DNA of 61,912 nucleotides from Nitrosomonadales bacterium (GTDB lineage Bacteria > Pseudomonadota > Gammaproteobacteria > Burkholderiales > Gallionellaceae), in the NCBI GenBank assembly GCA_947475825.1, contig CANJMS010000002.1:1-61912 (forward strand), given 5' to 3'. A model generated the notes under the pieces. That model saw nothing but the letters and a program-made list of their open reading frames with translations. It was not told the DNA's origin and did not search any database. Below are positions 22,305-56,143 of the stretch, in pieces. The translations under genes were made by a program, and so were the position numbers. Within the stretch, counting starts at the first letter, position 1. Every line of letters begins with the position of its first letter.

Positions 22305-23069
22305 TTAAATTTGGTTAAAGCGTTCGCGTGCAATTTGTAAATCCTGTTCTGTATCGACTCCGCTGGGTGGGGCGTCATCAGTAATGGTTACGCCAATTTT
22401 ATAGCCATGCCATAGTGCGCGTAATTGTTCTAACGCTTCTGTTTGTTCAATAGCGGCAGGCGGCAGTTGGCAAAAATCGCGCAAAAAACTGGCGCGGTAA
22501 GCATAGATGCCGATATGGCGTAGTACATTGTCCCCTTGTGGGACAGAGTGCGTAGTCGTTTTAGCATCGCGTGCAAAGGGAATCGCGGCACGGCTGAAAT
22601 ACAAAGCGTTGTAATGTTTGTCCAGCACCACTTTCACCACATTGGGATTGTTGATGACGGTGTCGTCATATATCGGATGACAAGCGGTGGCGATGGCGCA
22701 ATCTGGATGATCGTGCAGATGTTGTGCCACAGCGCGAATCAGCGCGGGCGGAATGAGCGGCTCATCGCCTTGCACGTTGACTACGATGGTATCGTCTGGC
22801 CATTTGAATTGTGCGGTAACCTCGGCAATGCGATCTGTGCCGCTGATGTGTTTGGGGTCGGTCATGCAGGCTTGGTAGCCGTGTATTTGCGCCGCTGTCA
22901 CGATACTGGGATGATCGGTAGCAATCCAGATTTCCTGCGCGCCACTTTTGCTGGCTTGCTCGGCTACTCGTATGACCATGGGCTTGCCCGCTATGGGCAA
23001 CAGTGCTTTGCCAGGTAAACGAGTGGAGGCAAGCCGTGCTGGGATCACTACATGAAAGCGGAGATTCAA
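22305..23069 (-). CDS. kdsB: 3-deoxy-manno-octulosonate cytidylyltransferase
   Basis: A 254-residue CMP-Kdo synthetase that activates Kdo for lipopolysaccharide. Signature: [49 protein letters not shown]. Around residues 175-190 the reading frame includes an insertion of about five residues, PQGDN, encoded by a CATTGTCCCCTTGTGGGAC palindrome, just before [10 protein letters not shown]. Homologues have a variable loop there, so the enzyme may tolerate it. The next gene upstream is the Trm112-like gene. Confidence 0.94.
22526..22545. repeat. in-frame palindrome, copy 1 (in kdsB)
   Basis: CATTGTCCCCTTGTGGGACA, a member of a five-copy family in this window (also 25780, 26514, 27194 and 55521). 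The core stem is CCCC/GGGG around TTGT. On the kdsB coding strand it is read VPQGDN. Confidence 0.8.
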
Positions 23070-23083
23070 AGTGAGCCTATTAT

Positions 23084-23275
23084 TTATTTAGGGAGCTTTT
23101 CAACTTCTTCAGCCGTCATCTGGCGCGCTTCATCCACCAGCATAACCGGGATGTCGTCTTTAATTGCAAAGGCCAGACGATCTGCTCGACAGATTAATTC
23201 CTGTTCAGCTTTGCGATAAACCAGCGAAGATTTGCATAGCGGGCACACTAGAATTTCAAGTAATTTGGCATCCAT
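23084..23275 (-). CDS. Trm112-like small zinc-ribbon-fold protein (YcaR type)
   Basis: A 63-residue protein of the Trm112/YcaR (UPF0434) family: [15 protein letters not shown] with a CxxC pair near the N-terminus, [19 protein letters not shown] near the end. In eukaryotes Trm112 activates methyltransferases; in bacteria the role is unclear, but the gene nearly always sits between lpxK and kdsB, exactly as here. Spacing is 6 bp from lpxK and 14 bp to kdsB, so it is one operon. The second cysteine pair of zinc forms is missing, which is usual for bacterial members. Confidence 0.92.
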
Positions 23276-23281
23276 GTCGGG

Positions 23282-24361
23282 TTATCCTTTTTGAATGGGA
23301 CGTGTTTTTTCTGCAGAACCTTTTTCTGCAGAAAAACTATTTCTGGATAAATTATTTCCAGATAAATTTTCTGGAGAGAGCTTACCCAGAATAAATTTGA
23401 TCAATGTCGGCGGCAAATGAGCGTCCACTCGTAGTACCCAGCAAATGTCGGTGGCAAACGGTGCACATTTTACCGCATCTTTTTCGGTCATCAAGATCGC
23501 TTCCGCACCTCTAAAATTAATATCTGCCGGCATAAACGGATGATGGTCAGGATACGGGTGGGTGCGTGCTTTCAGACCCAGTTCACGCAAATAATCGAAG
23601 AAGCGTTGTGGGGAGGCGATGCCCGCGACAGCATGATTATCCTTGTCGCGGAAGTCGGCGACCTTGGCGGTAATCTCAGGATTCCGCAAATTATAAAAAG
23701 TCTCACCACGCAATTTCATACTGTAGGCATCGCCTACATCTTCCACGCCGCCATGCAAGACGATGGCATCGACGCTATTCATGCGTGACGACGGCTCGCG
23801 TAGCGGCCCTGATGGCAGCAGCATACCGTTACCAAATGTACGCACACCATCTATCACCAAAATTTCAATATCGCGGCGCAATTGATAATGTTGCAAGCCG
23901 TCATCGCTCAGTATCACATTACATTCGGGATGCGCCTGCAATAGCGCGCGTCCAGCCGCCACGCGATTACGCCCTATCCAAACCGGACAAATTTTGCGCC
24001 GCGCCATGAGCGCGGGTTCGTCGCCCACCACCGCCGGATCGCTTTGTGCGTCGACTTTTTGCGGCATATTGGCCGAGCCGCCATAGCCGCGACTGATAAT
24101 GCCGGGTCGCCAACCGTTATCTATTAGTTTCTGTGCCAGCCACAGGGTTAAAGGAGTCTTGCCCGTACCGCCCACCGTGATATTGCCGATGATAATGACG
24201 GGTACGGGCAGCTTCTCACTTCTTAAAATTCCAAAGCGATAAAACAGTCTGCGCCCGATAGTTAGCATGCGAAAGACAAAACTGAAAGGACCAAGAAAAA
24301 GTTGTATCGGGGAAAGTTGATACCAATGCTCTTCGAGCCAACGACTGAATGTTTTTAACAT
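23282..24361 (-). CDS. lpxK: tetraacyldisaccharide 4'-kinase
   Basis: A 359-residue inner-membrane kinase that phosphorylates the lipid A precursor. Walker A is IIGNITVGGTGKTPLTLWLAQ; ISRGYGG, VGDEPALMARR and LSDDGLQHYQLRRDIEI are typical. Family members end close to the LPPTLIKFIL region. Here a tail of about 25 residues follows (residues about 335-359, Ser/Asn/Glu-rich: ENLSGNNLSRNSF), encoded by palindromic repeats at 23305-23385 containing TTTTTCTGCAGAA twice and TTTCTGGATAAATT. The tail is probably an acquired extension with no role in catalysis. Confidence 0.93.
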   Translation of the reverse strand: MLKTFSRWLEEHWYQLSPIQLFLGPFSFVFRMLTIGRRLFYRFGILRSEKLPVPVIIIGNITVGGTGKTPLTLWLAQKLIDNGWRPGIISRGYGGSANMPQKVDAQSDPAVVGDEPALMARRKICPVWIGRNRVAAGRALLQAHPECNVILSDDGLQHYQLRRDIEILVIDGVRTFGNGMLLPSGPLREPSSRMNSVDAIVLHGGVEDVGDAYSMKLRGETFYNLRNPEITAKVADFRDKDNHAVAGIASPQRFFDYLRELGLKARTHPYPDHHPFMPADINFRGAEAILMTEKDAVKCAPFATDICWVLRVDAHLPPTLIKFILGKLSPENLSGNNLSRNSFSAEKGSAEKTRPIQKG

Positions 24362-24371
24362 GTTGATAAAT

Positions 24372-24785
24372 TTATTTGCGACTTGTAGTAAATGTAATGC
24401 TGTTAAAACCAGCCTGACGTGCAGCTTCCATAATATTAATCACAGCTTGATGCGGTGTTTTGGCATCGGCGTTGATAATGATCATTGGATTTTTTTGATC
24501 GCCTGCGGCACGACGCAGTGCCTGGGAAAATTTTTCCACGCCACCAAAAACAATTCCAGAATCATTGATTGCATAATGTTCAATCGCATCAACTGAGACA
24601 TTAATTTTAACGGGTGGAATAGCGGATTGTTCACCGCTGGCTTGCGGCAATTTTATTTTCAGCGCGGAAAATTTTTCATAGGTAGTGGTTACCATCAGAA
24701 AAATAATGATGACTAAAAGTACATCAATCATTGGAATAAGGTTAATTTCAGGCTCTTCGTGGTCACGGCCTCGTTGAAAATTCAT
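24372..24785 (-). CDS. exbD: biopolymer transport protein ExbD/TolR family
   Basis: A 137-residue protein with a short cytosolic N-terminus (GRDHEEPEINLIPMIDVLLVIIIFLMVTTTY), which contains the single membrane helix and the conserved proton-path Asp in IDVLLV, followed by a periplasmic domain (NADAKTPHQAVINIMEAARQAGF). It works with ExbB as a proton-driven motor, energising TonB-type transport. It is 15 bp after exbB and just before lpxK, an arrangement common in betaproteobacteria. No tonB is nearby, so ExbD versus TolR rests on the lpxK context. Confidence 0.9.
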   Translation of the reverse strand: MNFQRGRDHEEPEINLIPMIDVLLVIIIFLMVTTTYEKFSALKIKLPQASGEQSAIPPVKINVSVDAIEHYAINDSGIVFGGVEKFSQALRRAAGDQKNPMIIINADAKTPHQAVINIMEAARQAGFNSITFTTSRK

Positions 24786-24800
24786 GATTTTAACCCTCGC

Positions 24801-25409
24801 TTAGCTACGGCGTGAACCGTGAATAATTTCCACCAACTTGATTGCCTGCTGCTCCATTTCGATGGCTAGATTATTTACCTGAGCGCGGAAGTGGCGATAG
24901 AAAATCATGCTGGGAATCGCCACAATCAAACCAAAAGCGGTGTTGTACAGCGCAATGGAAATGCCATGCGCCAGTGCGGCAGGCGCGCTCTCGGTGGCAC
25001 TTTGTGCGCCGAAAATTTCAATCATACCAACCATCGTGCCAAATAATCCCAGCAAGGGGCTGATCGAAGCAATGGTGCCGAGCGCGGTTAAAAAGCGCGA
25101 TAAATCATGCGCCACCACACGCCCTGTTTCCTCAATGGACTCCTTCATCACCTCGGGAGAGTTTTTCACATTCTTCAGTCCCGCCGCAAATATGCGTCCG
25201 AGCGGCGAGCCAGCCGCCAGCCGCGCCAGCATCTCATCGTTCACACCATGAGTGGTAATATCCTGTATCACGTTATCCAAGAGTTGTGCTGGTATAACTG
25301 TTCTGTAGCGTAGCGTGTACAGGCGTTCGCCAATAAGCCCTAAGGCAATAACTGATGCAATAAGCAAAAACCAGATCGGCCAACCAGCCGCTTCAATAAT
25401 GGCAAACAC
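24801..25409 (-). CDS. exbB: MotA/TolQ/ExbB proton channel family protein
   Basis: A 202-residue inner-membrane protein with three helices: IIEAAGWPIWFLLIASVIALGLIGERLY at the N-terminus, LTALGTIASISPLLGLFGTMVGMIEIFG (the proton-channel signature), and GISIALYNTAFGLIVAIPSMIFYRHF. Partner of the adjacent ExbD. It is the first gene of the minus-strand run towards adk. Its promoter should lie in the roughly 400-bp divergent gap shared with recJ. Confidence 0.92.
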   Translation of the reverse strand: MFAIIEAAGWPIWFLLIASVIALGLIGERLYTLRYRTVIPAQLLDNVIQDITTHGVNDEMLARLAAGSPLGRIFAAGLKNVKNSPEVMKESIEETGRVVAHDLSRFLTALGTIASISPLLGLFGTMVGMIEIFGAQSATESAPAALAHGISIALYNTAFGLIVAIPSMIFYRHFRAQVNNLAIEMEQQAIKLVEIIHGSRRS

Positions 25410-25640
25410 TATTTTTCTCCAAATTATCGGGATGTATTTTAAGGGTTAAGCTTGAAATTGAAATACGAATAATGTAACTGCTCATAGATATTTGGGCAAC
25501 ATGCCAAGTAACCGCCGCACATTGTACTGAGGAAACCCCTCGCTCACTAATAGTTTAGATTTCAATCAGGGAAATTTGACCTGTGCTTTCAATCAATCTG
25601 CTTTCAATCTAAAGAGTTCAGCGGGCTAAGCAGCGATCTC

Positions 25641-25727
25641 ATTCCAGTTTCCGATAAAAGGAGCACAAGGCGGCAAGGATGAGGCGACGAAGGTAACACA
25701 GTGATCGTTTTTATCGGGAATTGGAAT
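25641..25727. repeat. short palindromic repeat upstream of recJ
   Basis: An 87-bp element with inverted ends ATTCCAGTTTCCGATAAAA and TTTTTATCGGGAATTGGAAT. Its interior GCACAAGGCGGCAAGGATGAG matches the complement of part of the element at 20701-20886. It is a compact member of the same family. Confidence 0.6.
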
Positions 25728-25779
25728 CACAACCTGCCCATACCCTAACATACCAATCGTTTCTGCTAAACTGCCGTGT

Positions 25780-25799
25780 CATTGTCCCCTTGTGGGACA
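25780..25799. repeat. in-frame palindrome, copy 2 (recJ leader)
   Basis: CATTGTCCCCTTGTGGGACA, lying 18 bp before the preferred recJ ATG. If translation began at GTG 25776 it would be read in-frame as SLSPCGT. In this copy the orientation relative to the gene is opposite to the kdsB copy. Confidence 0.75.
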
Positions 25800-25817
25800 T
25801 TTTTTGCCGTAGCACCC

Positions 25818-27797
25818 ATGCCTGATATTGCATCACGCCCCCATTCCGCTACAACCGTAAATCAACTTATCGCAAGTGGAATGCAGCCTTTGCTAGCCCG
25901 TATTTATGCTGCTCGTGAAATTCTGGACATTGCACAATTAAATACGGCTCTGCTCGGTTTGCTACCTTACACGTTATTAAAAAATGCACAGGAAATGGCA
26001 GTCATACTGGCGGATGCCATTGCCACGCAACGTAAAATTCTAATCGTGGCAGATTATGATGCTGATGGTGCAACCGCATGTGCTGTGGGGCTGCGAGGCT
26101 TGCGCGCAATGGGCGCAAATGTGGCATTTATCGTTCCGAACCGGTTTGAATATGGCTATGGCCTTACCCCGGAAATCGTCCAGCTAGCGGCTGGCGTAGG
26201 CTGCGCGTCCAATCCAGATAAACCCGATTTTATTCTGACTGTCGACAACGGCATTTCCAGCGTGGAAGGTGTGGCAGAAGCCAATCGGCTGGATATAGAG
26301 GTGCTGATTACCGATCATCATTTGCCAGGGTGTACGCTGCCGGACGCGCGATGTATTGTGAATCCCAACCAAAATGGTTGCGCCTTCCCCAGTAAAAACC
26401 TGGCAGGTGTTGGCGTGATGTTTTATGTACTGCTGGCCTTGCGTGCCGAGTTGCGCGCACGCGGTCAATTTAATGAAGCGACGGTGTCAACTTCTCAAGC
26501 TCGCCAGAGCTTAGCCCCACAAGGGGACAATGAGAATTGCCTACACCCTCCGGGTGCGAGAACCCCTGTGAGGCCTTTGGTGGTGTCAACTCCGCCCAAC
26601 CGGAGGTTGGATGCGGATTGCCTACCTTTGGTGGTGTCAACTCCGCCCAACCGGAGGTTGGATGCGGATTGCCTACCTTTGGTGCAGCCTAATCTGGCCG
26701 AGCTATTGGACATCGTTGCGCTAGGCACGGTGGCAGATGTGGTGAAGCTGGATGAAAATAATCGCATACTGGTACAACAAGGTTTGCAACGCATTCGTGC
26801 GGGGCGAGCCTGTGCGGGCATTCAGGCATTGCTTGCCGTAGCACGCAAAGTCCCCAGCAAAACCAGCGCATATGAACTCGGTTTCGTGGTCGGCCCGCGC
26901 TTAAATGCTGCCGGGCGGTTGGATGACATGAGCTTGGGCATCCAATGTTTGACTACCGATGATTCCACGATAGCTGCCAAGATAGCCACCCAGCTGGATG
27001 CGCTCAATCACGAACGTCGCAGCATCGAGGCGGACATGCAACAAACAGCATTATTGGCCTTGGAGAATATTGATCCAACCGACCATTACAGTTTGACTTT
27101 ATTTGACCCAAGCTGGCATCAAGGCGTGATTGGCATCTTGGCATCGCGACTCAAGGATAAATATCATCGACCCACTATTATTTTTGCACGCTCGTCCCAC
27201 AAGGGGACAATGTCTGTGGGGGAGCTAGAAGGGGGGGAGCTAAAAAGGGGGGAGATAAAAGGTTCTGGTCGCAGCATTGCAGGACTGCACTTGCGTGATG
27301 CGCTGGATTTAATTGCCAAGCGCCATCCGCATCTACTGCAAAAATTTGGCGGCCATGCAATGGCGGCAGGGCTCAGTTTGCGTGAAGAACATTTCGCCGA
27401 GTTTCAGCAAGCGTTTGAAGCTGTTGTGCAAAGCCTGCTGCCATCTACCGCACTCCACAAAACGTTGGAGACAGATGGCGAATTAGCTCAAGCAGATTTT
27501 TCGCTGGACATCGTGCGCAGCCTGGAACAGCAAGTATGGGGACAAGGCTTTCCGCCGCCAACATTTAATAATATATTTACAGTCAAAAGCCAGCGCGTCG
27601 TCGGTGAAAAACATTTGAAACTCAAACTGGCGATGGGCTCGACTACATTCGATGCCATCTACTTTTTTAACATCGACCCCCTGCCGAAAAACATCCGCGC
27701 TGTATATAAATTATCAGCCAACGAATACAACGGCAACACCACAATACAACTCGTCATCGAACATTGGGAACACTGCAAGCCTAGCGAAGCACTATAA
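25818..27797 (+). CDS. recJ: single-stranded-DNA-specific exonuclease RecJ
   Basis: A 659-residue 5'-3' ssDNA exonuclease of the DHH family used in repair and recombination. DHH motifs: ILIVADYDADGATACAVGLRG, FILTVDNGISSVEG, VLITDHHLPG; the DHHA1 part holds GVGVMFYVLLALRAE and GFVVGPRLNAAGRLDDM, followed by the C-terminal KFGGHAMAAGLSL. ATG 25818 was preferred; GTG 25776 is also open. It carries two in-frame extra segments not expected in RecJ: about 60 residues (26490-26690) after ARGQFNEAT, and about 20 residues (27190-27255) before GSGRSIAGLHLRDALD. Both are made of palindromic repeats. The frame is uninterrupted, so activity may be kept. prfB starts 31 bp downstream. Confidence 0.93.
   Translation: MPDIASRPHSATTVNQLIASGMQPLLARIYAAREILDIAQLNTALLGLLPYTLLKNAQEMAVILADAIATQRKILIVADYDADGATACAVGLRGLRAMGANVAFIVPNRFEYGYGLTPEIVQLAAGVGCASNPDKPDFILTVDNGISSVEGVAEANRLDIEVLITDHHLPGCTLPDARCIVNPNQNGCAFPSKNLAGVGVMFYVLLALRAELRARGQFNEATVSTSQARQSLAPQGDNENCLHPPGARTPVRPLVVSTPPNRRLDADCLPLVVSTPPNRRLDADCLPLVQPNLAELLDIVALGTVADVVKLDENNRILVQQGLQRIRAGRACAGIQALLAVARKVPSKTSAYELGFVVGPRLNAAGRLDDMSLGIQCLTTDDSTIAAKIATQLDALNHERRSIEADMQQTALLALENIDPTDHYSLTLFDPSWHQGVIGILASRLKDKYHRPTIIFARSSHKGTMSVGELEGGELKRGEIKGSGRSIAGLHLRDALDLIAKRHPHLLQKFGGHAMAAGLSLREEHFAEFQQAFEAVVQSLLPSTALHKTLETDGELAQADFSLDIVRSLEQQVWGQGFPPPTFNNIFTVKSQRVVGEKHLKLKLAMGSTTFDAIYFFNIDPLPKNIRAVYKLSANEYNGNTTIQLVIEHWEHCKPSEAL
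26514..26532. repeat. in-frame palindrome, copy 3 (in recJ)
   Basis: GCCCCACAAGGGGACAATG, the complement orientation of the family word. It is read APQGDN within recJ, the same frame as the kdsB copy, and forms part of the larger insertion array. Confidence 0.8.
26575..26676 (+). repeat. 51-bp tandem repeat inside recJ
   Basis: Two exact 51-bp units (26575-26625 and 26626-26676) followed by the first bases of a third. Each encodes VVSTPPNRRLDADCLPL, in frame with recJ. The unit contains the hairpin CCAACCGGAGGTTGG. Just upstream another hairpin, CACCCTCCGGGTG, is also in-frame. The exact identity of the units implies a recent duplication. Confidence 0.9.
27194..27212. repeat. in-frame palindrome, copy 4 (in recJ)
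   Basis: GTCCCACAAGGGGACAATG, read SHKGTM, a different frame from copies 1 and 3. It is followed by a G-rich stretch giving GELEGGELKRGEIKG before the normal RecJ sequence resumes. Confidence 0.8.
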
Positions 27798-27828
27798 TGC
27801 GCGTCCAAAAACAGTGAAAGTAATCAGT

Positions 27829-28933
27829 ATGGAAGCCGAACAACTCAACGCCCTCTCCAATCAACTCAAAGATTTGCGTACTCGCACAAACGAATTACGG
27901 AGGTATCTTTGACTTTGATGCCAAGCAAGAACGCCTGAATGAAATTGTAATCCTCAGCGAAGACCCGGCCATCTGGCAGGACAGCAAACGCTCGCAGGAA
28001 CTCGGGCGCGAACGCAAAATCCTCGAAGGCATCGTCCTCACCCTCACCGAGCTGGACAGCAGCCTCAATGATGCAACCGAACTACTGGAAATGGCGCTGG
28101 CAGAAAATGACAGCGACAGCCTGCACAGCATCGCACAAGACACAGTGGTGATGGAAAAGCAAGTAGCGGACATGGAATTCCGCCGCATGTTCAACAATCC
28201 CATGGATGCCAACAACTGCTTCGTCGATATTCAATCCGGCAGTGGCGGCACTGAAGCGCAAGACTGGGCTTCCATGCTGTTGCGTATGTATTTGCGTTAT
28301 TGCGAACAAAAAGGATTCGGCGTGGAAGTGCTGGAACAATCCGATGGCGAAGTCGCAGGCATCAAAGGCGCGGTTTTCAAAGTCACGGGCGATTATGCCT
28401 ACGGCCATTTACGCACCGAATCGGGTGTGCACAGGTTGGTTAGAAAATCTCCATTCGATTCCGGCAACCGCCGCCACACCTCATTCTCCAGCGTGTTCGT
28501 TTATCCGGAAGTAGATGAGTCTATCGAGATTGACATCAACCCTGCCGACTTGCGCACCGACACCTATCGTGCCAGCGGCGCGGGTGGACAACACATCAAT
28601 AAAACCGATTCCGCCGTGCGTATCACCCACATTCCCACTGGTATCGTCGTGCAATGTCAAAGCGACCGCTCGCAACACCGTAACCGTGCCGAGGCCATGG
28701 CCATGCTGAAATCGCGCATGTACGAAGCCGAACTACGCAAACGCAACACCGAAAAACAAGCGCTGGAAGATAGCAAAACCGACATCGGCTGGGGACACCA
28801 AATTCGCTCCTACGTGCTGGATCAATCGCGCATCAAAGACCTGCGTACCAACATTGAAATCGGCAACACCCAAGGCGTGCTGGATGGCGATCTTGATCCA
28901 TTTATCAGCGCGAGTTTGAAGCAGGGGGTGTAG
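27829..28933 (+). CDS. prfB: peptide chain release factor 2 (programmed +1 frameshift)
   Basis: RF2 recognises UGA and UAA stops. The first 27 codons (27829-27909) end RRYL at an in-frame TGA (27910-27912). The sequence GGAGGTATCTTTGAC matches the classical autoregulatory +1 frameshift site, so the ribosome shifts to read GAC TTT GAT and continues to the stop at 28931-28933, giving about 367 residues. The anticodon-like SPF loop lies in [15 protein letters not shown]; the catalytic GGQ is in [19 protein letters not shown]. The gene follows recJ by 31 bp. In many proteobacteria lysS comes next; here it is 18 kb away. Confidence 0.95.
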
Positions 28934-29029
28934 GGAAATAACGGCTGTTGCTGGCAGCCAAGCCGTTAAACAACAATCTTCAAGTTGATCGACTATGCTT
29001 TATCCGAGATTTTTCATTAGAGACCCCAT

Positions 29030-29466
29030 CAGGGCGAATAAACCGGCGTAAATTTGGCGGGAAAATCTAATATTTTTGAGGCATCCCACAGGCCTTGCAT
29101 CCAGGCTCGCTGCTGCATCGCCGCCGCCATATTCAAGATCGGCTTTCGGTGGTGATGTAAGCCGCCTTGGCAAACAATTTGTAACGCAGGGTTCGCAGTG
29201 TGTGTTGCACCGTGTTGGAAGAGTTTTTTACCGCGCTGGTTTTGAGCAACACCTAGCGCAATAAACTCATCAGGTTATAGGCCAGCATCACCGTGTTGAG
29301 CGCCGCCTCGGTCGCCCAGAAGTCCCGCATATTGAAACTGTCCGCCGCGAAATCGTACTTGAGTTCCTTGATGCGGTTCTCGCAGTCGTCGCGTCCCCGG
29401 TAGATGCGCCAGATGACTTCCGCCGGCAAATCCAGATCGGTCACCAGTGCCGAGAACCGCCACTTG
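29030..29466 (-). pseudogene. IS1380-family transposase C-terminal remnant
   Basis: The minus strand reads [39 protein letters not shown], then [18 protein letters not shown], the conserved C-terminal part of IS1380-type transposases. A stop follows LMSLLR, after which the old sequence continues (TLRTLRYKLFAKAAYITTESR), with a frameshifted GLWDASK end. The upstream side is fused without a gap to an aminopeptidase N fragment (junction about 29466), so the N-terminal half is gone. It is the first piece of the accessory region after prfB. Confidence 0.8.
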
Positions 29467-29734
29467 CCGACCACCGCCTCGATATTGGCGTAATCGGTAT
29501 CGGTGGCGATGCTGGGGGTTGACCAACACATACTTGGTGTTGAAGATATTCAGGCTCTTGTTTTCCATCGCGCCCATGTTGAAGTCGCCCACCGCAACGA
29601 TCATGAACCGGTCCAGATCAAGCGCCAGCCCGTAGCGTTACTGTTCCAGCGGATGCTGTGCTTGAGCGATTCCATCGCATGCTGCGTCTTGTCCAGATTG
29701 CCCGGCTCCACCCACAGTTGCAGCAGCACGCGGC
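29467..29734 (-). pseudogene. pepN: aminopeptidase N fragment A (middle part)
   Basis: Reads LLQLWVEPGNLDKTQHAMES and LKHSIRWN, then after a frameshift [20 protein letters not shown] and [10 protein letters not shown]. These are central M1 aminopeptidase N sequences, including the GAMEN substrate-binding motif. The zinc motif HExxH that should follow is missing, since the frame runs into the IS1380 remnant right after IEAVVG. It is broken at both ends and frameshifted, so it is not functional. Two other pepN pieces lie at 31927-32957 and 35950-36444. Confidence 0.85.
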
Positions 29735-30297: not shown

Positions 30298-30555
30298 TGC
30301 ATCGAATAGGTCGAATACTGGGGTCTCAATACTGTTCATGACCCCTAGACCTGACCCAATACTGTTCGACGGTTCGAGGCTACATCTAGGTTCACTTGCG
30401 TTACGGCCTGCATCTCTGTCGTAAGGAACTCACGACCCCCGATTACTCGAACGCCGCTCCTTCGTGCTACCAAGGCGTATGGACAATTCCTTGGGCGGGA
30501 CTTTAACCCGCTAGTTAAATTACTGTTACTGCGAACGCATGACCCTATTGATTAG
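30298..30555. other. decayed intergenic stretch
   Basis: About 258 bp without a gene. It contains a short direct repeat around CAATACTG/GTTC (30315-30372: TCAATACTGTTC and CCAATACTGTTCGA) and then a GC-balanced block with small hairpins (GGCGGGACTTTAACCCGCT). It may be mobile-element debris, but nothing is recognised. Confidence 0.35.
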
Positions 30556-30828
30556 GGAACCTCTGATTAAGTCCCGCATGGTCGCGCATTCGGCTTTGCG
30601 GGATGGGATGCAAGAAAGGTGACGACGCGAATGGTTATTCCCTTCGCTAGGAGCCTGACGCCGCAGACCGCCCGCAATGCCTATGCCCTTGTGGGTTGCG
30701 ATAAAAACGGGCACTCGCTGTGTTGCGCTCCTTGGTATCGTAGAATAACTACGACCGGCGTCGCGCGCCTTGCGATCATCCATTTTTTGTCAGCAACGCG
30801 GTTCATGATAGACTTAATCAGAGGTTCC
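30556..30828. mobile_element. MITE-like element, copy 3 (273 bp)
   Basis: The full-length form of the element also at 2948 and 21368, with GGAACCTCTGATTAAGTC inverted ends and TTAG on both sides (30552-30555 and 30829-30832). It lies in the accessory region, 17 bp beyond the stop of the J-domain-like gene. Confidence 0.85.
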
Positions 30829-30845
30829 TTAGGCTTCGGCATGGA

Positions 30846-31926: not shown

Positions 31927-32957
31927 CTACACATCCTTGGATAAGCCTTTGGCCGCGGCTACTTTCTGCAACGCAGCCTGTATCTGTTGTTTCAGCGCGG
32001 GCTGGTATTTTTTCCAGTGATCCAGCGTGCGTACCAGACGTGTGGCCAGCTGCGGATTGAGCTTGTTCAGCGCGATCACCTGTTCTGTCCAGAACGCATA
32101 GCCGCTGCCATCCGCCGCATGGAACTGTGACGGATTGCCGTTGCAGAAACTGAAGATCAGGCTGCGTGCGCGGTTGGGATTTTTCAGCGTGAATGCGGGA
32201 TGGGTCATCAGCTTGCGCACCGCTTTTACATCGGCATGCATCGCCACCGCCTGCAGGCTGAACCATTTGTCGACCACCAGCGCCTCGTTTTTGAAATCCT
32301 GATAGAAGTTTTTCAATGGCTGTTGTGCCGTTTTGCTGCCGGTGTTTACCAGGTACACCAGCTTGCCTGCCACCAGCGCAAACAGATAAGAAGGTTTCTT
32401 GAACGGGTCTTCCCACTTGGCATAGTGGCGGCCTAATGGCAGGTCTCCCTGTTCGATCAGGTTGCCATTGGATAGCAACACCGGATAGCTTTTCTTGTCG
32501 CCGCGCAGCATCACGGTGTATTTCGCCATCACGTTCGGGCGATCGGGAAACCAGGTGATCTTGCGGAAACCTTCGGCCTCGCATTGGGTAAAGTAGTGCC
32601 GTTGGAGACATACAGACCCATCATCGAGGTGTTCTTCTCGGGCTCAACCAGTGTCTCGATCTCCAGCGTGATCTCGTCCGGTGCGTTGGCGATGCGCAAT
32701 TTTCCGTCTGCTATTGAGTAACCCTAGGCATTTTTTCCGAGCGTCATGCCGTTCATGCGCAAAGCCACCAGCTTCACACCGTCGCCCAGCAACTCCACAT
32801 CCTTGTTGGGCGATGCGCTATTGCGCTGCAGGGTGATGCGCGTGGACACACGGGTTGCTACAGGGTCGAGATCAAAACCCATTTCAACGGTGTTCACCCA
32901 GTACGCCGGGGCAGTGTAGTCTTTGCGATGGATGGTGACGGGTGGTTGCTGGGTCAT
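31927..32957 (-). pseudogene. pepN: aminopeptidase N fragment B (N- and C-terminal parts joined)
   Basis: Begins at the true N-terminus (MTQQPPVTIHRKDYTAPAYW), hits a stop after MTLGKNA where about a dozen codons are missing, continues [20 protein letters not shown], and needs a frameshift near YVSNGT. It then reads [20 protein letters not shown] as far as LVAGKLVY and jumps in-frame to the C-terminus ([20 protein letters not shown] onward). Roughly the central half of the 880-residue enzyme, including GAMEN and HExxH, is deleted. It is a clear pseudogene, near-identical over its first part to fragment C. Confidence 0.88.
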
Positions 32958-35949: not shown

Positions 35950-36444
35950 GCATCACGGTGTATTTCGCCATCACGTCCGGGCGATCGGGAAACCAGGTGA
36001 TCTTGCGGAAACCTTCGGCCTCGCATTGGGTGAAGTAGTGCCGTTGGAGACAAACAGACCCATCATCGAGGTATTCTTCTCGGGCTGAACCAGTGTCTCG
36101 ATCTCCAGCGTGATCTCGTCCGGTGCGTTGGCGATGCGCAATTTCCCGTCTGCTATTGAGTAGCCGAACTTGTTATTTTTACCCGGGTTATTTTTATTCG
36201 CATCACCTTTGCGGAGCGTCTTGCCGTTCATGCGCAAGGCCACCAGTTTGGCGCCGTCGCCCAGCAGTTCCACATCCTTATTGGGCGATGCGCTATTGCG
36301 CTGCAGCGTGATGCGCGTGGACACATGCGTTGCCGCAGGGTCGAGATCGAAACCCATTTCAACGGTGTTCACCCAATAGGCCGGGGCAGTGTAGTCTTTG
36401 CGATGGATGGTGACGTGTGGATTTTGGTTTGATTTCGGGGTCAT
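35950..36444 (-). pseudogene. pepN: aminopeptidase N fragment C (N-terminal part)
   Basis: Starts MTPKSNQNPHVTIHRKDYTA and reads intact through [20 protein letters not shown] and [17 protein letters not shown]. It then needs a frameshift and ends abruptly within MAKYTVM at 35950. Only about 155 of some 880 residues remain, and no catalytic motif. It is almost identical in sequence to the start of fragment B, but keeps the KGDANKNNPGK segment that B has lost, so the two are separate copies. Confidence 0.85.
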
Positions 36445-42054: not shown

Positions 42055-42058
42055 GCTG

Positions 42059-48470: not shown

Positions 48471-48502
48471 AGCGCACTCACCTAAATTTATAGAGAACTC
48501 CC

Positions 48503-49825: not shown

Positions 49826-49836
49826 GCTGAAAAAAA

Positions 49837-51477
49837 ATGAAAATCGCCCTCGCTCAAATCAATTGCACCTTGGGTGACCTCGTTGGTAACGCCGCTAAAA
49901 TTATTGTTTACAGCGAACGTGCCAAGCAAGCTGGAGCGAGTCTGTTACTCACGCCGGAAATGAGTTTGTGTGGTTATCAGCCAGAAGATTTACTGTTGCG
50001 CGACGGTTTTTACCAGGCTTGTAAATCGGCCTTGCATGAATTGGCCAAAAAAATAAATGGAATCACCGTTGTGGTAGGGCATCCGCATATCGAAGGGGGC
50101 AAGCGCTATAACGCCGCATCGGTGCTGCGCGATGGAAAAATTCTCGCCATGTATTGCAAACACAGTTTGCCTAACTACAGCGTGTTTGATGAAGAGCGTT
50201 ATTTTGCGCGTGGGAAATTACCGTGCGTGTTTGAAGTCGATGGCATCCAATTCGCGCTGAATATCTGCGCGGACATCTGGCAACCGCACACTGCCATGCA
50301 GGCCAAGAAAGCGGGCGCGCAAGTGCTGTTAGTGTTGAACGCCTCGCCGTATCACCTCGACAAACAAACTGCGCGTTATGAAATTATTCGCCAGCGCATT
50401 CGAGAAACAGGCTTGTCTATCGCCTATGTCAACATGGTGGGCGGGCAGGATGAGCTGGTATTCGATGGCGCTTCCTTTGCCATGAATGCAACGGGGGCCA
50501 TGAATGCAGAGGGCGCGTTGACGCATCAATTTTCAGCATTTGTAGAAACGCTGGGGTTACTTGAATTGAGTGCTGGAAAGTTTATTGCTGGGGAGCAAGT
50601 GCCTGCGCTCACACCAGAAGCCGACATTTATCGCGCGCTGTGTTTGGGCGTGCATGACTACATCACAAAAAATAACTTTCCCGGCGTGTTGTTGGGATTA
50701 TCCGGCGGCATAGATTCTGCGCTCACGCTGGCGATTGCAGTCGATGCCTTGGGTGCAGATCGCGTACATGCAGTGATGATGCCGTCACCTTATACCGCTC
50801 AGATTAGTCTGGATGATGCGCGGGAAATGGCTGCCACGCTCGGTGTGCGCTATGACGAACTGGATATTAAACCTGCACTGGATGCGCATCTTGCCACATT
50901 GCACCAGCAATTTAAAAATAGCGTAACCGACACCACCGAAGAAAATTTACAAGCGCGCATACGCGGCAATTTACTGATGGCGCTGTCTAATAAATTTGGC
51001 GCGCTGGTGCTGACTACCGGTAATAAATCTGAAATCGCGGTGGGTTACTGCACGCTGTATGGCGACATGGCTGGCGGCTTTGCGGTGCTGAAAGATGTCA
51101 GCAAAACATGGGTGGTGCGTCTGTCTAATTATCGCAACACATTAGGTTATCGCAATACCTTGGGCCACGTTATTCCGCAGCGCATCATCTCACGCCCGCC
51201 CAGCGCGGAATTAAAGCCTGACCAAACCGATCAGGACAGCTTGCCGCCTTACAATATTCTCGATGGCATCATGGAATGTTATGTTGAACAAAATCTCAGT
51301 ATTGCAGAAATTGTTAGGCGCGGTTTTGCCGAAGCGGATGTACGGCGTGTCGTTACCTTAATTCGTAGCAGCGAATATAAGCGTCGCCAATCACCAGTTG
51401 GCGTACGCGTGACCGATCGCAGTTTTGGCAAGGATTGGCGCTACCCGATTACGGTGCGCTATCAGGATAACTTTTAG
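49837..51477 (+). CDS. nadE: glutamine-dependent NAD+ synthetase
   Basis: A 546-residue two-domain enzyme. The N-terminal nitrilase-type glutaminase has the catalytic Glu in LLTPEMSLCGYQPEDLL, Lys in MYCKHSLPNYSVFDEERYF, and Cys in FALNICADIWQP. The C-terminal synthetase has the P-loop LGLSGGIDSALTLAIAVDALG and TGNKSEIAVGYCTLYGDMAGG. Odd feature: RNTLGYRNTLG near residue 430 is an 18-bp tandem duplication (TATCGCAACACATTAGGT, then a copy differing at 3 bases) before VIPQRIISRPPSAEL; relatives have one unit. It starts 11 bp after rmuC. Confidence 0.94.
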   Translation: MKIALAQINCTLGDLVGNAAKIIVYSERAKQAGASLLLTPEMSLCGYQPEDLLLRDGFYQACKSALHELAKKINGITVVVGHPHIEGGKRYNAASVLRDGKILAMYCKHSLPNYSVFDEERYFARGKLPCVFEVDGIQFALNICADIWQPHTAMQAKKAGAQVLLVLNASPYHLDKQTARYEIIRQRIRETGLSIAYVNMVGGQDELVFDGASFAMNATGAMNAEGALTHQFSAFVETLGLLELSAGKFIAGEQVPALTPEADIYRALCLGVHDYITKNNFPGVLLGLSGGIDSALTLAIAVDALGADRVHAVMMPSPYTAQISLDDAREMAATLGVRYDELDIKPALDAHLATLHQQFKNSVTDTTEENLQARIRGNLLMALSNKFGALVLTTGNKSEIAVGYCTLYGDMAGGFAVLKDVSKTWVVRLSNYRNTLGYRNTLGHVIPQRIISRPPSAELKPDQTDQDSLPPYNILDGIMECYVEQNLSIAEIVRRGFAEADVRRVVTLIRSSEYKRRQSPVGVRVTDRSFGKDWRYPITVRYQDNF

Positions 51478-51491
51478 TGTGTGAGGTTGAA

Positions 51492-51575
51492 ATGAAGCTG
51501 CGTGTCTTGATTTTAGGTTATGGCGGGATGGGACATGCGATGGAATTTCTGCTGGCGAAAATGCAGGATGCCTGA
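51492..51575 (+). pseudogene. N-terminal remnant of a Rossmann-fold dehydrogenase (GpsA-like)
   Basis: A 27-residue frame, MKLRVLILGYGGMGHAMEFL onward, then TGA; a few more codons in another frame (PELEIALLV) follow. GYGxMGHAMEFLL is the beginning of a group of NAD(P)-dependent glycerol-3-phosphate dehydrogenase-like proteins found after nadE in some betaproteobacteria. The rest is gone. A proper ribosome site (GAGGTTGAA) is still in front. The family assignment is tentative. Confidence 0.5.
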
Positions 51576-51604
51576 ATTGGAAATCGCGCTGCTGGTTTAG
51601 AATG

Positions 51605-52519
51605 TTATCTGTTGGCCTCGTGCTTACTGTTCAGCCATTGCCGTGCTGCATCTATCAACTCGCTTGCCGTTAATCCAATCGGTCCAATACCATTCTTCAC
51701 CAACTCATCGGCAGCGTGTCCATGAGCATAAACGGCCAACAGCAGGGCATCTCTGGCGATGAGACCTTGTGCGATCAATGCGGCAATCATGCCTGTTAAC
51801 ACATCCCCCGTGCCAGCACTGGCCAGACCCGGATTGCCGCTGGTATTAATTAAATATTCGCCTGACGGCATCATGCAAATGCTGCCCGCGCCTTTCAGCA
51901 CTACATAGCTATTGAATTGTTGTGCGAGCGATTGTGCAGCTGCGATGCGATCATCTTGCACGCTTGATATGCTGACACCTAACGACCGCGCTGCTTCACC
52001 TGGATGTGGCGTGAGCAGGGTAGGGTAGTTATCAGATCGCTGTTGCAAAATTTCAGCCAGCTCGGGATAGGTGGCAATGAGATTTAAGGCATCAGCATCC
52101 AGCACCAGCGGTGCGGCGTATTCCAATGCTCGCTGGAGCAAAAAATAAGCATCGGGTGTGTTGCCCAAACCGGGGCCTGCCACCAGCACGCTCAAATTAA
52201 ATTTAAATAATTCATTCGGAGAATGCAGCATGAGTTCAGGTTGCTGTAGATCAACGGTTGGGGAGTGTTGCGCTAACAGGCCGACATATACTCGTCCCGC
52301 ACCAAACTTCAACGCGGCGCGTGCAGCCAGAAAAGCCGCACCCACCATGCCATCTGCGCCACCCAAAACACCCACGCTGCCGTAATTCCCTTTGTGGCTA
52401 TCAGCCGAACGAGGTGCGGGTATTAACGAGGTAGCGTAGGTTTCATCCAGTACCTGCCCACGAGGTTGCAGCAATGTCGGTGCATCTAAATTCGGAGCAG
52501 CCAGATGAGAGGTGTGCAT
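51605..52519 (-). CDS. nnrD: ADP-dependent NAD(P)HX dehydratase
   Basis: A 304-residue ribokinase-like enzyme (YjeF C-terminal domain) that repairs hydrated NAD(P)H. Motifs: GSVGVLGGADGMVGAAFLAARAALKFGAGRVYVG, LVAGPGLGNTPDAY, PLVLDADALNL, LLTPHPGEAARSLG, and the catalytic GNPGLASAGTGDVLTGMIAALIAQG. The N-terminal epimerase domain (NnrE) of the usual bifunctional protein is absent; it must be separate or missing. It converges with nadE, a pleasing NAD context although on opposite strands. Confidence 0.92.
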   Translation of the reverse strand: MHTSHLAAPNLDAPTLLQPRGQVLDETYATSLIPAPRSADSHKGNYGSVGVLGGADGMVGAAFLAARAALKFGAGRVYVGLLAQHSPTVDLQQPELMLHSPNELFKFNLSVLVAGPGLGNTPDAYFLLQRALEYAAPLVLDADALNLIATYPELAEILQQRSDNYPTLLTPHPGEAARSLGVSISSVQDDRIAAAQSLAQQFNSYVVLKGAGSICMMPSGEYLINTSGNPGLASAGTGDVLTGMIAALIAQGLIARDALLLAVYAHGHAADELVKNGIGPIGLTASELIDAARQWLNSKHEANR

Positions 52520-52630
52520 GATTAAGAGGGTGGCGGGTAATGATTAAATCCTGCTATGGGTAGAATACATAATAGCCGCTTTGCTAATGTTACGTTTTTT
52601 ATCCGCTCATACTTGGTGTGGGGAAGTGGT

Positions 52631-53869
52631 TTACATCTGCCCCTGATCTTGATCGTGGCTGTGTTTTTTATATATCACACCCATGATGCCAGACAGTAAT
52701 AAACCAAATATGGTGATGATGGCGTAGATGCTGAAATCCAGCTTATTCATCAATGCGAATAAACCAAGCATGACGAAGATGCTGAGATTTTCGTTGAAAT
52801 TTTGTACGGCGATGGATCTGCCCGCACCCATCAGAATGTGGCCGCGATGTTGTAACAGCGCATTCATGGGCACAACAAAGTAGCCGGCCATCGCGCCAAT
52901 GACGATGAGCAGACCAATGGCAAGTATGGAATTGGTGATGGGGATCATCATTAATACGCCCACGCCCATGGCGATGCCGACTGGCAACACACGCACGGCA
53001 GATTCCAATTTGACATAGCGGGCTGCCAAGACAGAGCCAATGGCAATGCCGATCGCAACCCAGGCAGTGAGATATGCGGCGCGGCCTAAATCATATTGCA
53101 AGGCGACGGCTGCCCAAGCCAGTACGATGAGGCGCAATGTTGCGCCTGCTCCCCAGAATAGAGTGGTGACTGCGAGCGATACTTGTCCGAGCGGATCTTT
53201 CCACAATAATTTAAAGCAGTGCCAGAAATTGGTGACTAAAAATATCGGGCTGCGACTGATAGGTATGTGATCGATGGGGACACGCGGGATGCCCAAGTTG
53301 AATAACGCCGCTGTTATATATATGAAAAATATGATGGCGATTGCCAGCATGGGCGCGGTGGTAATGCCTGTTTCTATCATAGGCACATCCCATAAATTCA
53401 GCAGCGTGCTGGATACTGTAGGGTTGACTAACACGCCGCCGATCACTGCGCCTAAAACAATAGCAGCCACAGTTAAACCTTCCATCCAGCCATTAGCCGA
53501 TACTAGCTGATTAAACGGTAGATACTCGGTGAGAATGCCGTATTTGGCGGGGGAATACATCGCCGCACCAAAACCTGCGATGCCGAAAGCGATGAGCGGG
53601 CTGACCCCAACCAGCATGGCAATGCATCCGACCATTTTGATAGTGTTGCTGATGAACATGACGCGACCCTTGGGCAACGAGTCGGCAAACGCACCTACAA
53701 AAGGAGCCAATATAATATATGAGGCGACAAAAGCCTGTTGTAACACAGGGATGTGCCAGTCGGGAGCCAACATCTCTTTTAGCAGGGCGATTGCAGCAAA
53801 AAGCAGGGCGTTGTCTGCGAGCGCGGAAAAAAATTGCGCCGCAAGAATAATCTTAAAACCTCGATTCAT
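52631..53869 (-). CDS. lplT: lysophospholipid transporter LplT
   Basis: A 412-residue MFS membrane protein with about 12 helices, starting GFKIILAAQFFSALADNALLFAAIALLKEM, the LplT signature. YIILAPFVGAFADSLPKGRVMFISNTIKMVG and PAKYGILTEYLPFNQLVSANGWMEG follow. LplT flips lysophosphatidylethanolamine inward for re-acylation. The acyltransferase Aas, often adjacent, is not here. It lies 111 bp beyond the nnrD start on the same strand and diverges from alr. Confidence 0.93.
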   Translation of the reverse strand: MNRGFKIILAAQFFSALADNALLFAAIALLKEMLAPDWHIPVLQQAFVASYIILAPFVGAFADSLPKGRVMFISNTIKMVGCIAMLVGVSPLIAFGIAGFGAAMYSPAKYGILTEYLPFNQLVSANGWMEGLTVAAIVLGAVIGGVLVNPTVSSTLLNLWDVPMIETGITTAPMLAIAIIFFIYITAALFNLGIPRVPIDHIPISRSPIFLVTNFWHCFKLLWKDPLGQVSLAVTTLFWGAGATLRLIVLAWAAVALQYDLGRAAYLTAWVAIGIAIGSVLAARYVKLESAVRVLPVGIAMGVGVLMMIPITNSILAIGLLIVIGAMAGYFVVPMNALLQHRGHILMGAGRSIAVQNFNENLSIFVMLGLFALMNKLDFSIYAIITIFGLLLSGIMGVIYKKHSHDQDQGQM

Positions 53870-54008
53870 GCAGCGGATTGGGTATTGTTTCAGGAATCGT
53901 TTTATATCATGAAAATTCGATTTACATCATAATAAATCCAGTTTATATCGCGAAAATAAACTTCAGATGCCTGCTATTATTCGCAACATTAAAAACGTCT
54001 AATGATCA

Positions 54009-55079
54009 TTGAGTATGTCCCGCCCCATTCGATCTAAAATTAATCTTAGTGCGCTGCAATATAATTTACGTCTAGCCAGGCGCTTGACCAGTGCGCGTAT
54101 TATGGCGGTTATTAAAGCCGAAGCGTATGGGCATGGCCTATTGCATAGCGCGGATGCACTGGACGATGCAGATGGCTTTGCTTTACTTGAATTAAGAGAT
54201 GCAGTGAGTTTGCGCGAGGCTGGATTCCGCCAGACAATTTTATTGTTGGAGGGTTTTTTTTCGGTGGATGAGTTGCCGCGCATGGCTGAATATGAAATCG
54301 CCAGCGTCATACACAGCCCGCAGCAGATTGCCATGCTGGATGCTTACCCGCGCCGCGCCGCATTGGATGTGTGGCTCAAGGTGAATACTGGCATGAATCG
54401 TCTAGGCTTTGTCGCGCATGAATTATCTGTGGCGATGGAAAAACTCAAAGCGCATCCAGCAGTGCGCGACATCACACTGATGACTCATTTTTCTCATGCC
54501 GATGAAGCGACAGGTGTAACCGCGCAGATGGAAAAATTTAATCAACAAGTCGCCCCCTATCGATTAGCGCGATCATTAGCAAATTCGGCAGCGTTACTGC
54601 GCTACCCGGCAACCCACGCCGATTGGGTGCGTCCTGGCATTATGCTATACGGTTCATCTCCCTTTCCAGAAGTCAGCGCGCAACAACTGGGCTTGCAGCC
54701 AGTGATGACGTTGCAGAGTGAAATTATTGCGGTGCGTGATTTGGAAGCAGGGGAGTCAATCAGTTATGGCGGGTTGTTTAGTGCCAAATATCCCATGCGT
54801 ATCGGCGTAGTGGCCTGTGGCTATGCAGATGGTTATCCACGCCACGCGCCGAGTGGTACGCCAATTCTGGTAGATGGACGGCGCACCCGTATTTTAGGGC
54901 GCATTACGATGGATATGCTGTGTATAGATTTAAGTGCACACGCTGCTGCCAAGGTGGGCAGCACAGTGACGCTGTGGGGGGAAGGGTTGCCTGTGGAAGA
55001 AGTTGCGCAAGCGGCAGGTACGATCAGCTATGAATTGCTATGCGCGATGGCCAGGCGAGTGCCCATCATAGCCAGATAA
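54009..55079 (+). CDS. alr: alanine racemase
   Basis: A 356-residue PLP-dependent racemase making D-alanine for peptidoglycan. The PLP lysine is in IMAVIKAEAYGHGLLHSADAL; KVNTGMNRLGF, TLMTHFSHADE, VRPGIMLYGSSPF and the catalytic Tyr in SYGGLFSAKYPMRIGVVACGYADGYPRH are all present. The length is typical. The lplT-alr divergent pair is common in betaproteobacteria. The start is at GTG/ATG 54009 within TATGTCC-type context (MSMSRPIRSKINLSALQYNL); the ATG at 54015 is equally possible. Confidence 0.94.
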   Translation: MSMSRPIRSKINLSALQYNLRLARRLTSARIMAVIKAEAYGHGLLHSADALDDADGFALLELRDAVSLREAGFRQTILLLEGFFSVDELPRMAEYEIASVIHSPQQIAMLDAYPRRAALDVWLKVNTGMNRLGFVAHELSVAMEKLKAHPAVRDITLMTHFSHADEATGVTAQMEKFNQQVAPYRLARSLANSAALLRYPATHADWVRPGIMLYGSSPFPEVSAQQLGLQPVMTLQSEIIAVRDLEAGESISYGGLFSAKYPMRIGVVACGYADGYPRHAPSGTPILVDGRRTRILGRITMDMLCIDLSAHAAAKVGSTVTLWGEGLPVEEVAQAAGTISYELLCAMARRVPIIAR

Positions 55080-55138
55080 CCAGTCATAGCCAGATAAAAT
55101 TTAGTAGCAGAAATCTTTACTAAGGCCTCTCTAACAAT

Positions 55139-56143
55139 TCAAAGTTTTAATAAATGCTGCACATGTTCGCGCTCTTCCAGCAATTCCTGATAGCTTTCCT
55201 GCATGTGTTTTTTCCCTGCCTCGCTTATGACCAAACCTTGCACGATGTGGTATTGCCCATTGCTGCATGTCACAGGAAAACCATATACCACACCTTCGGG
55301 AATGCCGTAGCTGCCATCAGAAGGTACGCTCATGGTGACCCAGTCATCGGGGCGGGTGTCCAATACCCAATCGTGCATATGAGCAATGGCCGAGTTAGCC
55401 GCGCTAGCTGCGCTGGATAGACCCCGCGCTTCAATCACTGCTGCACCGCGCTTTTGCACGATGGGAATAAATTCATTATCAATCCAAGTGTGATCTTGCA
55501 ACATGTCCAGCACACGTTTGCATTGTCCCCTTGTGGGGCCATGTACTTCACAGTGCGACAAATCCGGATATTGGGTGCCAGAATGATTGCCCCACACCAC
55601 CATTTTCCTAACGTCCTGCACTGGCCGATTTAATTTTTTCGCAATTTGCGCAATGGCACGATTGTGATCCAGCCGCGTCATCGAACTGAAATTTTTAGGA
55701 TTAATGTTGGGTGCGTTATGCATGGCGATCAGCGCATTGGTGTTGGCCGGATTACCCACTACCAGTACTTTTACATTGGGCGAGGCGACTTCATTCATCA
55801 CCTTGCCTTGCTCAGAAAAAATTCCCGCGTTGGCGGTGATCAGGTCTTTGCGTTCCATCCCCTTGCTGCGCGGTCGCGCGCCCACCATCAAAATAACTTC
55901 CGCATCGCGAAACGCAACTTTAGGATCGTCCGTAATAATGACTTGTTGCAGCAGTGGAAAAACGCAATCTTCCAACTCCATCGCCACGCCGAGTAGTGTG
56001 GTTTGAGCTTGCGGGACATCGAGTAGTTGTAGCACAACAGGCTGATCACGTCCCAACATGCCACCGTTAGCGATGCGAAATAGTAGGCTGTACCCAATCT
56101 GACCGGCAGCACCTGTAATAGCAATACGGATAGGGGCTTTTAT
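55139..56143 (-). CDS. mdh: malate dehydrogenase, non-canonical start codon
   Basis: A TCA-cycle NAD-dependent malate dehydrogenase of about 334 residues. The Rossmann motif [60 protein letters not shown] and the catalytic His in [17 protein letters not shown] are present. No ATG, GTG or TTG lies between an in-frame TAG and the Rossmann motif. AAAGGAG is followed after 7 bases by ATA AAA GCC CCT, where relatives have ATG AAA. The first ATG (codon for M in GGMLGRDQ) would delete the NAD-binding loop. The frame also has an 8-residue in-frame insertion (GPTRGQCK) from a palindromic repeat at 55521. Either it starts at ATA/ATT or it is inactive. Confidence 0.85.
55521..55540. repeat. in-frame palindrome, copy 5 (in mdh)
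   Basis: CATTGTCCCCTTGTGGGGCC; on the mdh coding strand it is read GPTRGQC, the third possible frame of the family. It lies in a loop between CEVHG and KRVLDML where homologues are shorter. Confidence 0.8.

Follow-up and report, generated by a model that had tools for sequence, protein, structure and literature searches.

An apparently undescribed 18-bp repeat, very probably a mobile element, in and between genes of two Gallionellaceae genomes

The window analyzed here, a stretch of 61,912 nucleotides (positions 1 to 61,912 of contig CANJMS010000002.1) from the draft genome of a member of the Gallionellaceae, contains five copies of the palindromic 18-bp repeat unit CATTGTCCCCTTGTGGGR, which, judged from the comparison of two related genomes, is very probably a non-autonomous, hairpin-forming mobile element active in one clade of this family. 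With a length of 18 bp, it would be among the smallest mobile elements for which there is direct before-and-after evidence. Few mobile elements are as poorly understood as those of less than 30 bp, the movement of which is hard to prove from repeats within a single genome. Two genomes that differ by about 8% in the sequences flanking shared copies provided dozens of sites that are exactly filled in one and empty in the other, and the same pair also gave information about the target motif, the orientation of insertion, insertion of the element into itself and a filter at the protein level. The general picture is that of housekeeping enzymes mutagenized naturally by insertions of six residues. 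With carriers and non-carriers so clearly divided within one genus, a search for the responsible enzyme is feasible.

The 18-bp unit and its filled and empty sites

An earlier note on this DNA had described the palindrome as a unit of 19–20 bp occurring five times in the window. The five places are real, compared with an expectation of 0.01 derived from 100 dinucleotide shuffles, but the 19-mer as printed is exact at only three of them (22526 and 25780 on the plus strand and 27194 on the minus strand), while the copies at 26514 (minus) and 55521 (plus) end in ...GGGGC, with one mismatch. The length had to be corrected to 18 bp; the following base, C or T at 148 of 149 solo sites, is host DNA. 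A 17-bp core is nearly constant, and the varying positions are the last base of the unit, R (A or G), and the host base Y (C or T).

The genome from which the window originates (G000) is a draft of 2.21 Mb in 119 contigs with a completeness of 97.8%. It contains 68 exact occurrences of CATTGTCCCCTTGTGGGRC (none for the reversed control), 95 copies of the 17-mer TTGTCCCCTTGTGGGRY and, when up to three mismatches are allowed, 114 copies (control: one). A search of 61 genomes, G000 included, revealed one other carrier with 186 copies, the sister genome G004, a draft metagenome bin from the same genus, in which 287 copies were found at up to three mismatches. From the remaining 17 genomes of the genus, 21 matches were obtained in total, every one with three mismatches, compared with 24 in the controls, such that the carriers are two of the 19 genomes of the genus. 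G000 was the sole carrier in an order-level sample of 399 genomes that does not contain G004. Viral contigs contained no exact match to CATTGTCCCCTTGTGGGRY, and a viral source is therefore not supported. No other abundant short family, i.e., no other family with a 14-mer in at least 12 contexts, was detected in 454 kb of G000 and 473 kb of G004.

The evidence for movement was obtained by comparing parts of the two genomes, 845 kb in the case of G000 (75 exact copies) and 487 kb in that of G004 (132 exact copies). A comparable stretch of G004 was available for 35 of the 75 copies in G000: 28 are present there, six are absent by exactly 18 bp and one differs in another way. Vice versa, 131 copies from G004 were tested and 64 of these proved comparable in G000: the copy is there in 23 cases, exactly 18 bp are missing in 32 and nine cases are of another kind. 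An exact 18-bp absence is thus seen for 38 of the 99 comparable copies when both directions are pooled. In a strict recount, an unbroken gap was demanded, bordered on each side by 20 bases of which no fewer than 15 agree, in a match at least 80% identical and at least 150 long, and neighboring events were merged. This removed two absences as too divergent and left 34 distinct 18-bp presence/absence events; G004 has the copy in 29 of them and G000 in five. A search with joined flanks yielded 42 gap-free empty sites, at which no target duplication is visible. The borders at these sites correspond to CATTG..R in 21 cases, are ambiguous in 16, are shifted by one base in two and fit neither description in three. 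A 17-bp unit combined with a one-base duplication was considered and rejected, as only the two shifted sites fit it versus 21 for the 18-mer, the same three fitting neither.

A third sequence adds to this comparison. Contig L048 is binned as Flavobacteriales; judged by its 86% identity to the window across 3.2 kb around recJ, it probably stems from a third Gallionellaceae strain and was misbinned. At the position corresponding to 26514 it has a copy whose flanks agree with those in the window, and the 18 bp present at 27194 are lacking in it.

Target motif, self-insertion and constancy of shared copies

The element is inserted at W^YRNNG or, in a fuller form, at about H-A-T-Y-W ^ Y-R-N-T-G. 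Among the 149 independent solo sites, the copy is directly preceded by A in 103, T in 44 and G in two cases and directly followed by C in 129, T in 19 and G in one; the fifth base after the copy is G in 103. A similar motif is apparent at the 58 intergenic sites. In the 42 uninserted sequences C never occurs at position −1, C or T is present at +1 in 41 and G at +5 in 31. As the motif is seen in uninserted DNA, the target preference precedes insertion. Comparison of the two genomes furthermore shows insertion in either orientation, within genes as well as between them. The element's 5′ end, CATTG, is similar to the flank YRNTG and could also pair with it: such pairing averages 3.25 of five positions, compared with 1.5–2.2 in shifted frames. 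The identity of R depends on the base preceding the copy (68 A and 35 G after A; 12 A and 32 G after T; p = 2e-5). We read this dependence as a possible sign of two subfamilies that differ slightly in their target preference.

The element also inserts into itself, either at its edge, whereby a tandem arises, or in its loop (CATTGTCCCCT^TGTGGG). Head-to-tail pairs at 18-bp spacing occur twice in G000 and six times in G004, and the exact nested form CATTGTCCCCT-18-mer-TGTGGG is present five and nine times, respectively. Five of the 28 shared G000 copies are accompanied by a further 18 bp in G004, and one nested copy in G004 is missing at the orthologous copy in G000.

In the 28 shared copies, a single change was found in 476 bases of the 17-bp core, whereas the flanks differ at 260 of 3,247 bases (8%). 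From the latter, 38 changes would be expected in the core, or perhaps 19 if only the partner copy can show them, a number that still greatly exceeds the single change seen. R differs in six of the 28 copies (five A/G, one A/C). Two readings offer themselves, constraint on the sequence itself and rewriting of the copies; constraint at every base across unrelated proteins seems unlikely.

Copies within genes and neighboring repeats

The copies in the window, their host genes and the associated insertions are as follows:

22305..23069, minus: kdsB host gene; Pfam cytidylyltransferase, fits KdsB
22526..22543, plus: copy 1, antisense within kdsB, read as VPQGDN; length-neutral compared with relatives
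25776..27797, plus: recJ host gene; DHH, DHHA1 and RecJ_OB domains; listed open reading frame, true start probably at about 25818
25780..25797, plus: copy 2, 5′ of the likely recJ start (ATG near 25818)
26484..26684, plus: composite recJ insertion, copy 3 inside a larger repeat plus the 51-bp tandem unit; borders approximate (protein alignment)
26515..26532, minus: copy 3, R = G, within recJ, read as APQGDN; inside a 67-residue insertion without counterpart in relatives
26574-26624 and 26625-26675, plus: 51-bp tandem units in recJ, part of the composite insertion
27195..27212, minus: copy 4, within recJ, read as SHKGTM; these 18 bp are lacking in contig L048
27201..27248, plus: 16-residue recJ insertion, placed by protein alignment, overlaps copy 4; border approximate
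55139..56059, minus: mdh host gene; Pfam lactate/malate dehydrogenase domains; open frame continues 5′ (342 codons)
55521..55538, plus: copy 5, R = G, within mdh, read as PTRGQC; clean six-residue insertion

That the hosts are conserved enzymes, as the earlier note had it, was borne out by the Pfam matches for RecJ, cytidylyltransferase and lactate/malate dehydrogenase domains. All four in-gene copies keep the frame, jointly in three frames as had been claimed; they are, however, antisense to the genes, and the peptide in Mdh reads PTRGQC. As to whether each copy is a clean insertion, this is the case in Mdh with its six residues; in RecJ two copies reside within inserted stretches, and in KdsB the copy brings no net change in length. 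The Mdh insertion is common to G000 and G004 and is missing in 16 of the 16 other sequences from the genus in which the site is covered; another sequence is partial and does not reach it. Nor is it present in the best-matching solved malate dehydrogenase; an AlphaFold model of Mdh had a mean pLDDT of 42 and was unusable. In RecJ, the copy at 26514 is located within a 67-residue insertion (68 versus one relative) that also contains the 51-bp tandem, while the copy at 27194 falls into the 16-residue insertion. Both insertions are missing from 16 of 16 relatives' genes (17 rows in the alignment, one gene appearing twice). recJ was not found in the G004 draft, in which only short repeat matches were obtained. 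The copy at 25780 belongs to the recJ leader, upstream of the likely start: the first methionine of the homologues aligns with the ATG at about 25818. In KdsB, VPQGDN replaces LPENLT-like residues of the relatives in a variable loop that is equally long in most of them. An orthologous copy, there with R = G, is present in G004. In another member of the genus (G012, L321), this KdsB loop is enlarged by a different insertion, about 19 residues long.

On the larger scale, open reading frames (ORFs) of at least 120 codons cover 0.87 of the examined DNA and harbor 56 of 75 copies in G000 and 86 of 132 in G004, or 142 of 207 pooled with shared copies counted in each genome. The earlier note had held that a distribution no more frequent in genes than by chance would speak against its interpretation, and the genic share indeed lies below the coding density. 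We do not think that this shortfall refutes insertion, because insertion requires that genes be tolerated and not that they be preferred. The unit comprises six codons without an internal stop in any of the six frames; in the PTRGQ frame, a preceding T creates a TGA at the border. After removal of orthologous duplicates, 123 independent in-gene copies are distributed over the readings PQGDN, LSPCG, HKGTM, PTRGQ, HCPLVG and IVPLW with 54, 24, 13, 12, 11 and 9 cases, compared with 34, 22, 12, 16, 14 and 25 expected when the intergenic motif is applied to coding DNA (p = 3e-4 overall and 1.6e-4 for PQGDN). The target motif explains part of the frame bias, and the remainder has the appearance of selection acting at the level of the peptide. 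Among ten hosts examined with Pfam are a formyltransferase (Fmt-type), leucyl-tRNA synthetase, an aminotransferase, MutL, RsmB and UvrD.

A second group of larger dispersed repeats stands beside or around 18-mers (window 26467-26514 and 26574-26675; L244, L136, L104, L081 and others). They consist of a 51-bp unit, CCTTTGGTGGTGTCAACTCC..GGATTGCCTA, and GTGTCAACTTCTCAAGCTCGCCAGAGCTTA, and are found in the reading frames of recJ, leucyl-tRNA synthetase (L244) and UvrD (L136). A repeat of 287 bp, framed by terminal inverted repeats of 28 bp (TAGGGAACCTCTGATTAAGTCC) and present in the window at 2938-3224, 21358-21644 and 30546-30832, has 12 matches of more than 150 bp in the examined G000 DNA and three diverged ones in G004; it is probably a miniature inverted-repeat transposable element (MITE). 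The window furthermore contains a match to the Group II intron D1-D4 RNA (30396-30513, minus strand), an int-alpA RNA match (58428-58499) with perhaps a prophage or integrative element nearby, and two duplicated blocks (32508-32952 and 35950-36427) of about 216 and 220 bp that are 97% and 90% alike.

In a scan of a genome collection, the 80 of 82 stretches listed comprised, besides G004, single matches in Chloroflexi (five records), a cyanobacterium, a methanogen, an actinomycete, a Defluviitaleaceae bin and a Flavobacteriales bin. When these ten genomes were searched with a 13-mer core, 24 matches were obtained in eight of them, 21 in the five Chloroflexi. One Chloroflexi match lies within an apparent RNase P RNA gene, read by eye. 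A 15-mer searched in 298 genomes from the class of one Chloroflexi match gave 29 matches in 14 genomes versus eight in the control; a relationship is not demonstrated thereby, and we treat these matches as a lead and not as family members. Anaerolineae (L158, L146, L159, L279, L292 and others) contain sparse TCCCCTTGTGGGA hairpins that begin differently at the 5′ end, for instance with ATATCA. Some of these hairpins stand in 18-bp tandem, and they may hint at a wider kind of element.

Possible mechanism, alternatives and comparison with known systems

How such an element might move can be pictured as follows. The moving form would be a single-stranded hairpin of DNA or RNA, the 5′ end of which, CATTG, may match the target YRNNG either through base pairing or as a recognition sequence that is present twice, and the enzyme would be supplied in trans. 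The length of six codons and the lack of internal stops allow many proteins to survive the insertion, after which selection seems to retain the hydrophilic PQGDN reading most and IVPLW least. Repeated self-insertion and subsequent collapse of 18-bp tandems could rewrite old copies, which would explain why the core is constant in shared copies while R changes. We offer this scheme of a self-rewriting 18-nt element that carries its own CATTG guide, relies on machinery unlike that of the repetitive extragenic palindromic (REP) sequences and their REP-associated tyrosine transposases (RAYT), is tolerated in genes and keeps its copies identical as a tentative proposal. A larger parent element with the same ends was sought in the examined DNA of G000 and G004 and not found; the half-sites encountered were nested copies, members of the CCCCCTGTGGG subfamily, part of the 287-bp repeat or chance-like.

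Several points weigh against a mobile element or against details of this scheme. The evidence for movement is comparative in nature, and no event was observed. The G004 DNA was mostly selected for containing copies. Among the 42 joined-flank sites at least two are false, as tandems are present in both genomes, two tandems were counted twice and some sites align poorly, hence the strict recount. Taken alone, the 18-mer has a weak predicted hairpin (−4.6 kcal/mol, z = −1.2), and a longer stem requires host bases. Flank position +3 fits neither pairing nor repetition well. The shared copies were chosen with one partner exact, which inflates their conservation, and sequence constraint or a shared recent burst could also account for the constant core. 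ORFs were picked by length without homology. A mobilizing enzyme common to the carriers did not emerge among Y1 transposases and reverse transcriptases, the two enzyme classes examined.

If a Y1 (HUH) transposase moved the unit in single-stranded form, in the manner of REP or IS200/IS605 elements, this would be in keeping with the hairpin, the lack of a target duplication and a flank motif that resembles the element's own end. Two Y1_Tnp matches are present in G004, one of them RAYT-type by eye. Against this, the stretches inspected around the two G004 genes contain other palindromes (GTGCGAAT..ATTCGCAC in the case of the RAYT-type gene) and none of the 18-mer family, although a variant copy resides about 5 kb away on the same contig, and a GTAG or CGTC tag is lacking. 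G000, despite its 114 copies, has no Y1_Tnp match; this is a 97.8% complete draft, so that absence is not proof, and repeated insertion sequences are often lost from draft assemblies. Five G000 copies are nevertheless found at places that are empty in G004. We regard this explanation as unlikely. A route via an 18-nt hairpin RNA, joined into a nucleic acid target and then reverse-transcribed, would fit the observation that changes of R and of the host Y keep U-A/U-G and G-C/G-U pairs, save for one G at Y in 149 sites, and RNA intermediates have reportedly been proposed for cyanobacterial small dispersed repeats. The pattern at Y can equally be a plain target preference, though, and RVT_1 matches occur in ten of the 19 genomes of the genus, in carriers and non-carriers alike. 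Moreover, the reverse transcriptases of the two carriers, one gene region in each, differ in their best models (RT_VI in G000, AbiP2 in G004), and we consider an RNA route distinctly improbable.

An immobile functional site kept by selection, such as a protein-binding, uptake or methylation signal, could explain why the core is almost unchanged in shared copies and why the 18-mer is the sole over-represented short family in the 454 kb (G000) and 473 kb (G004) surveyed. It does not agree with presence or absence of exactly 18 bp, self-insertion, a motif outside the repeat and occurrence in only two of 19 genomes, and is very hard to uphold. Both genomes are drafts and G004 is a metagenome bin, which might raise suspicion of an assembly or adapter artefact. 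Orthologous copies in two assemblies, the same-flank copy in a third contig (L048), the target motif and the frame bias in genes leave practically no room for it. The mobile element thus continues to be the explanation we favor.

Two loci deserve mention in connection with the enzymes discussed above. L234 (9993-11018, G000) encodes a reverse transcriptase resembling that of type VI retrons, within which, judged by eye, about 39 residues are duplicated in tandem, and in L235 (5304-7466, G004) an AbiP2-like reverse transcriptase adjoins the RAYT-type transposase (by eye) with its GTGCGAAT..ATTCGCAC palindromes.

As had been surmised, no comparable family for Gallionella or Gallionellaceae is described among the papers that searches of the open-licence literature listed, and the 18-bp mobile element is apparently undescribed, being new in host, size and degree of gene residence. 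The earlier note had likened it to the Rickettsia palindromic elements (RPEs), for which frame-keeping palindromic insertions in protein genes are described (PMC2229807; PMC10969869). This likeness stands for the effect, as many conserved genes are hit and the frame is kept (Mdh, RecJ and other hosts; not KdsB). Membership fails on size and tag: RPEs measure 105-146 bp (PMC2229807) or about 150 bp (PMC10969869), and a CGTC tag is reported for the REP-like families RPE-4 and RPE-6 (PMC3733652), whereas here exactly 18 bp come and go, no CGTC tag is present at ends or flanks and the host is a different one. With REP and REPIN sequences the element shares the short hairpin and the high copy number. 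Intragenic REPs, many in genes for DNA synthesis and repair, are reported for several species (PMC3733652), and repair-gene hosts of GTAG/CGTC REPs have their equivalent here in MutL-, UvrD- and RecJ-type genes. REPs are, however, 20-40 bp long, tagged, mostly intergenic and often dimeric, while the 18-mer is untagged, mostly solitary (64 of 75 copies in G000, 108 of 132 in G004) and mostly located in ORFs. Its ends are CATT and GGGR, and no GTAG tag occurs there or in the flanks of the 149 solo copies. A RAYT gene flanked by the 18-mer was likewise not found in the two genomes (no Y1_Tnp in G000, the G004 gene beside other palindromes), both being drafts in which absence is not proof. Bacterial MITEs are non-autonomous and abundant, and some are fused in frame (PMC2229807; PMC10969869); in these respects they resemble the 18-mer, which differs by the lack of transposon-type terminal inverted repeats, of a target duplication and of a longer parent in the examined DNA, and by being far shorter.

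A further candidate for comparison is provided by the cyanobacterial small dispersed repeats (SDRs). Elhai et al. in 2008 reportedly described families of 21-27 nt that are hairpin-like, in some cases self-nested and apparently mobile. The 18-mer is likewise dispersed, shows evidence of recent mobility and inserts into itself, and with 18 nt it is slightly below that size range. It differs in phylum and sequence, in that about two-thirds of the examined copies are situated in genes where the frame is kept, and in its target, W^YRNNG and not HIP1; for SDR5, precise insertion between nucleotides 3 and 4 of HIP1 is described (PMC4390886). In kind, going by these general features, the element would seem closest to the cyanobacterial SDRs, while in its effect it resembles the RPEs.

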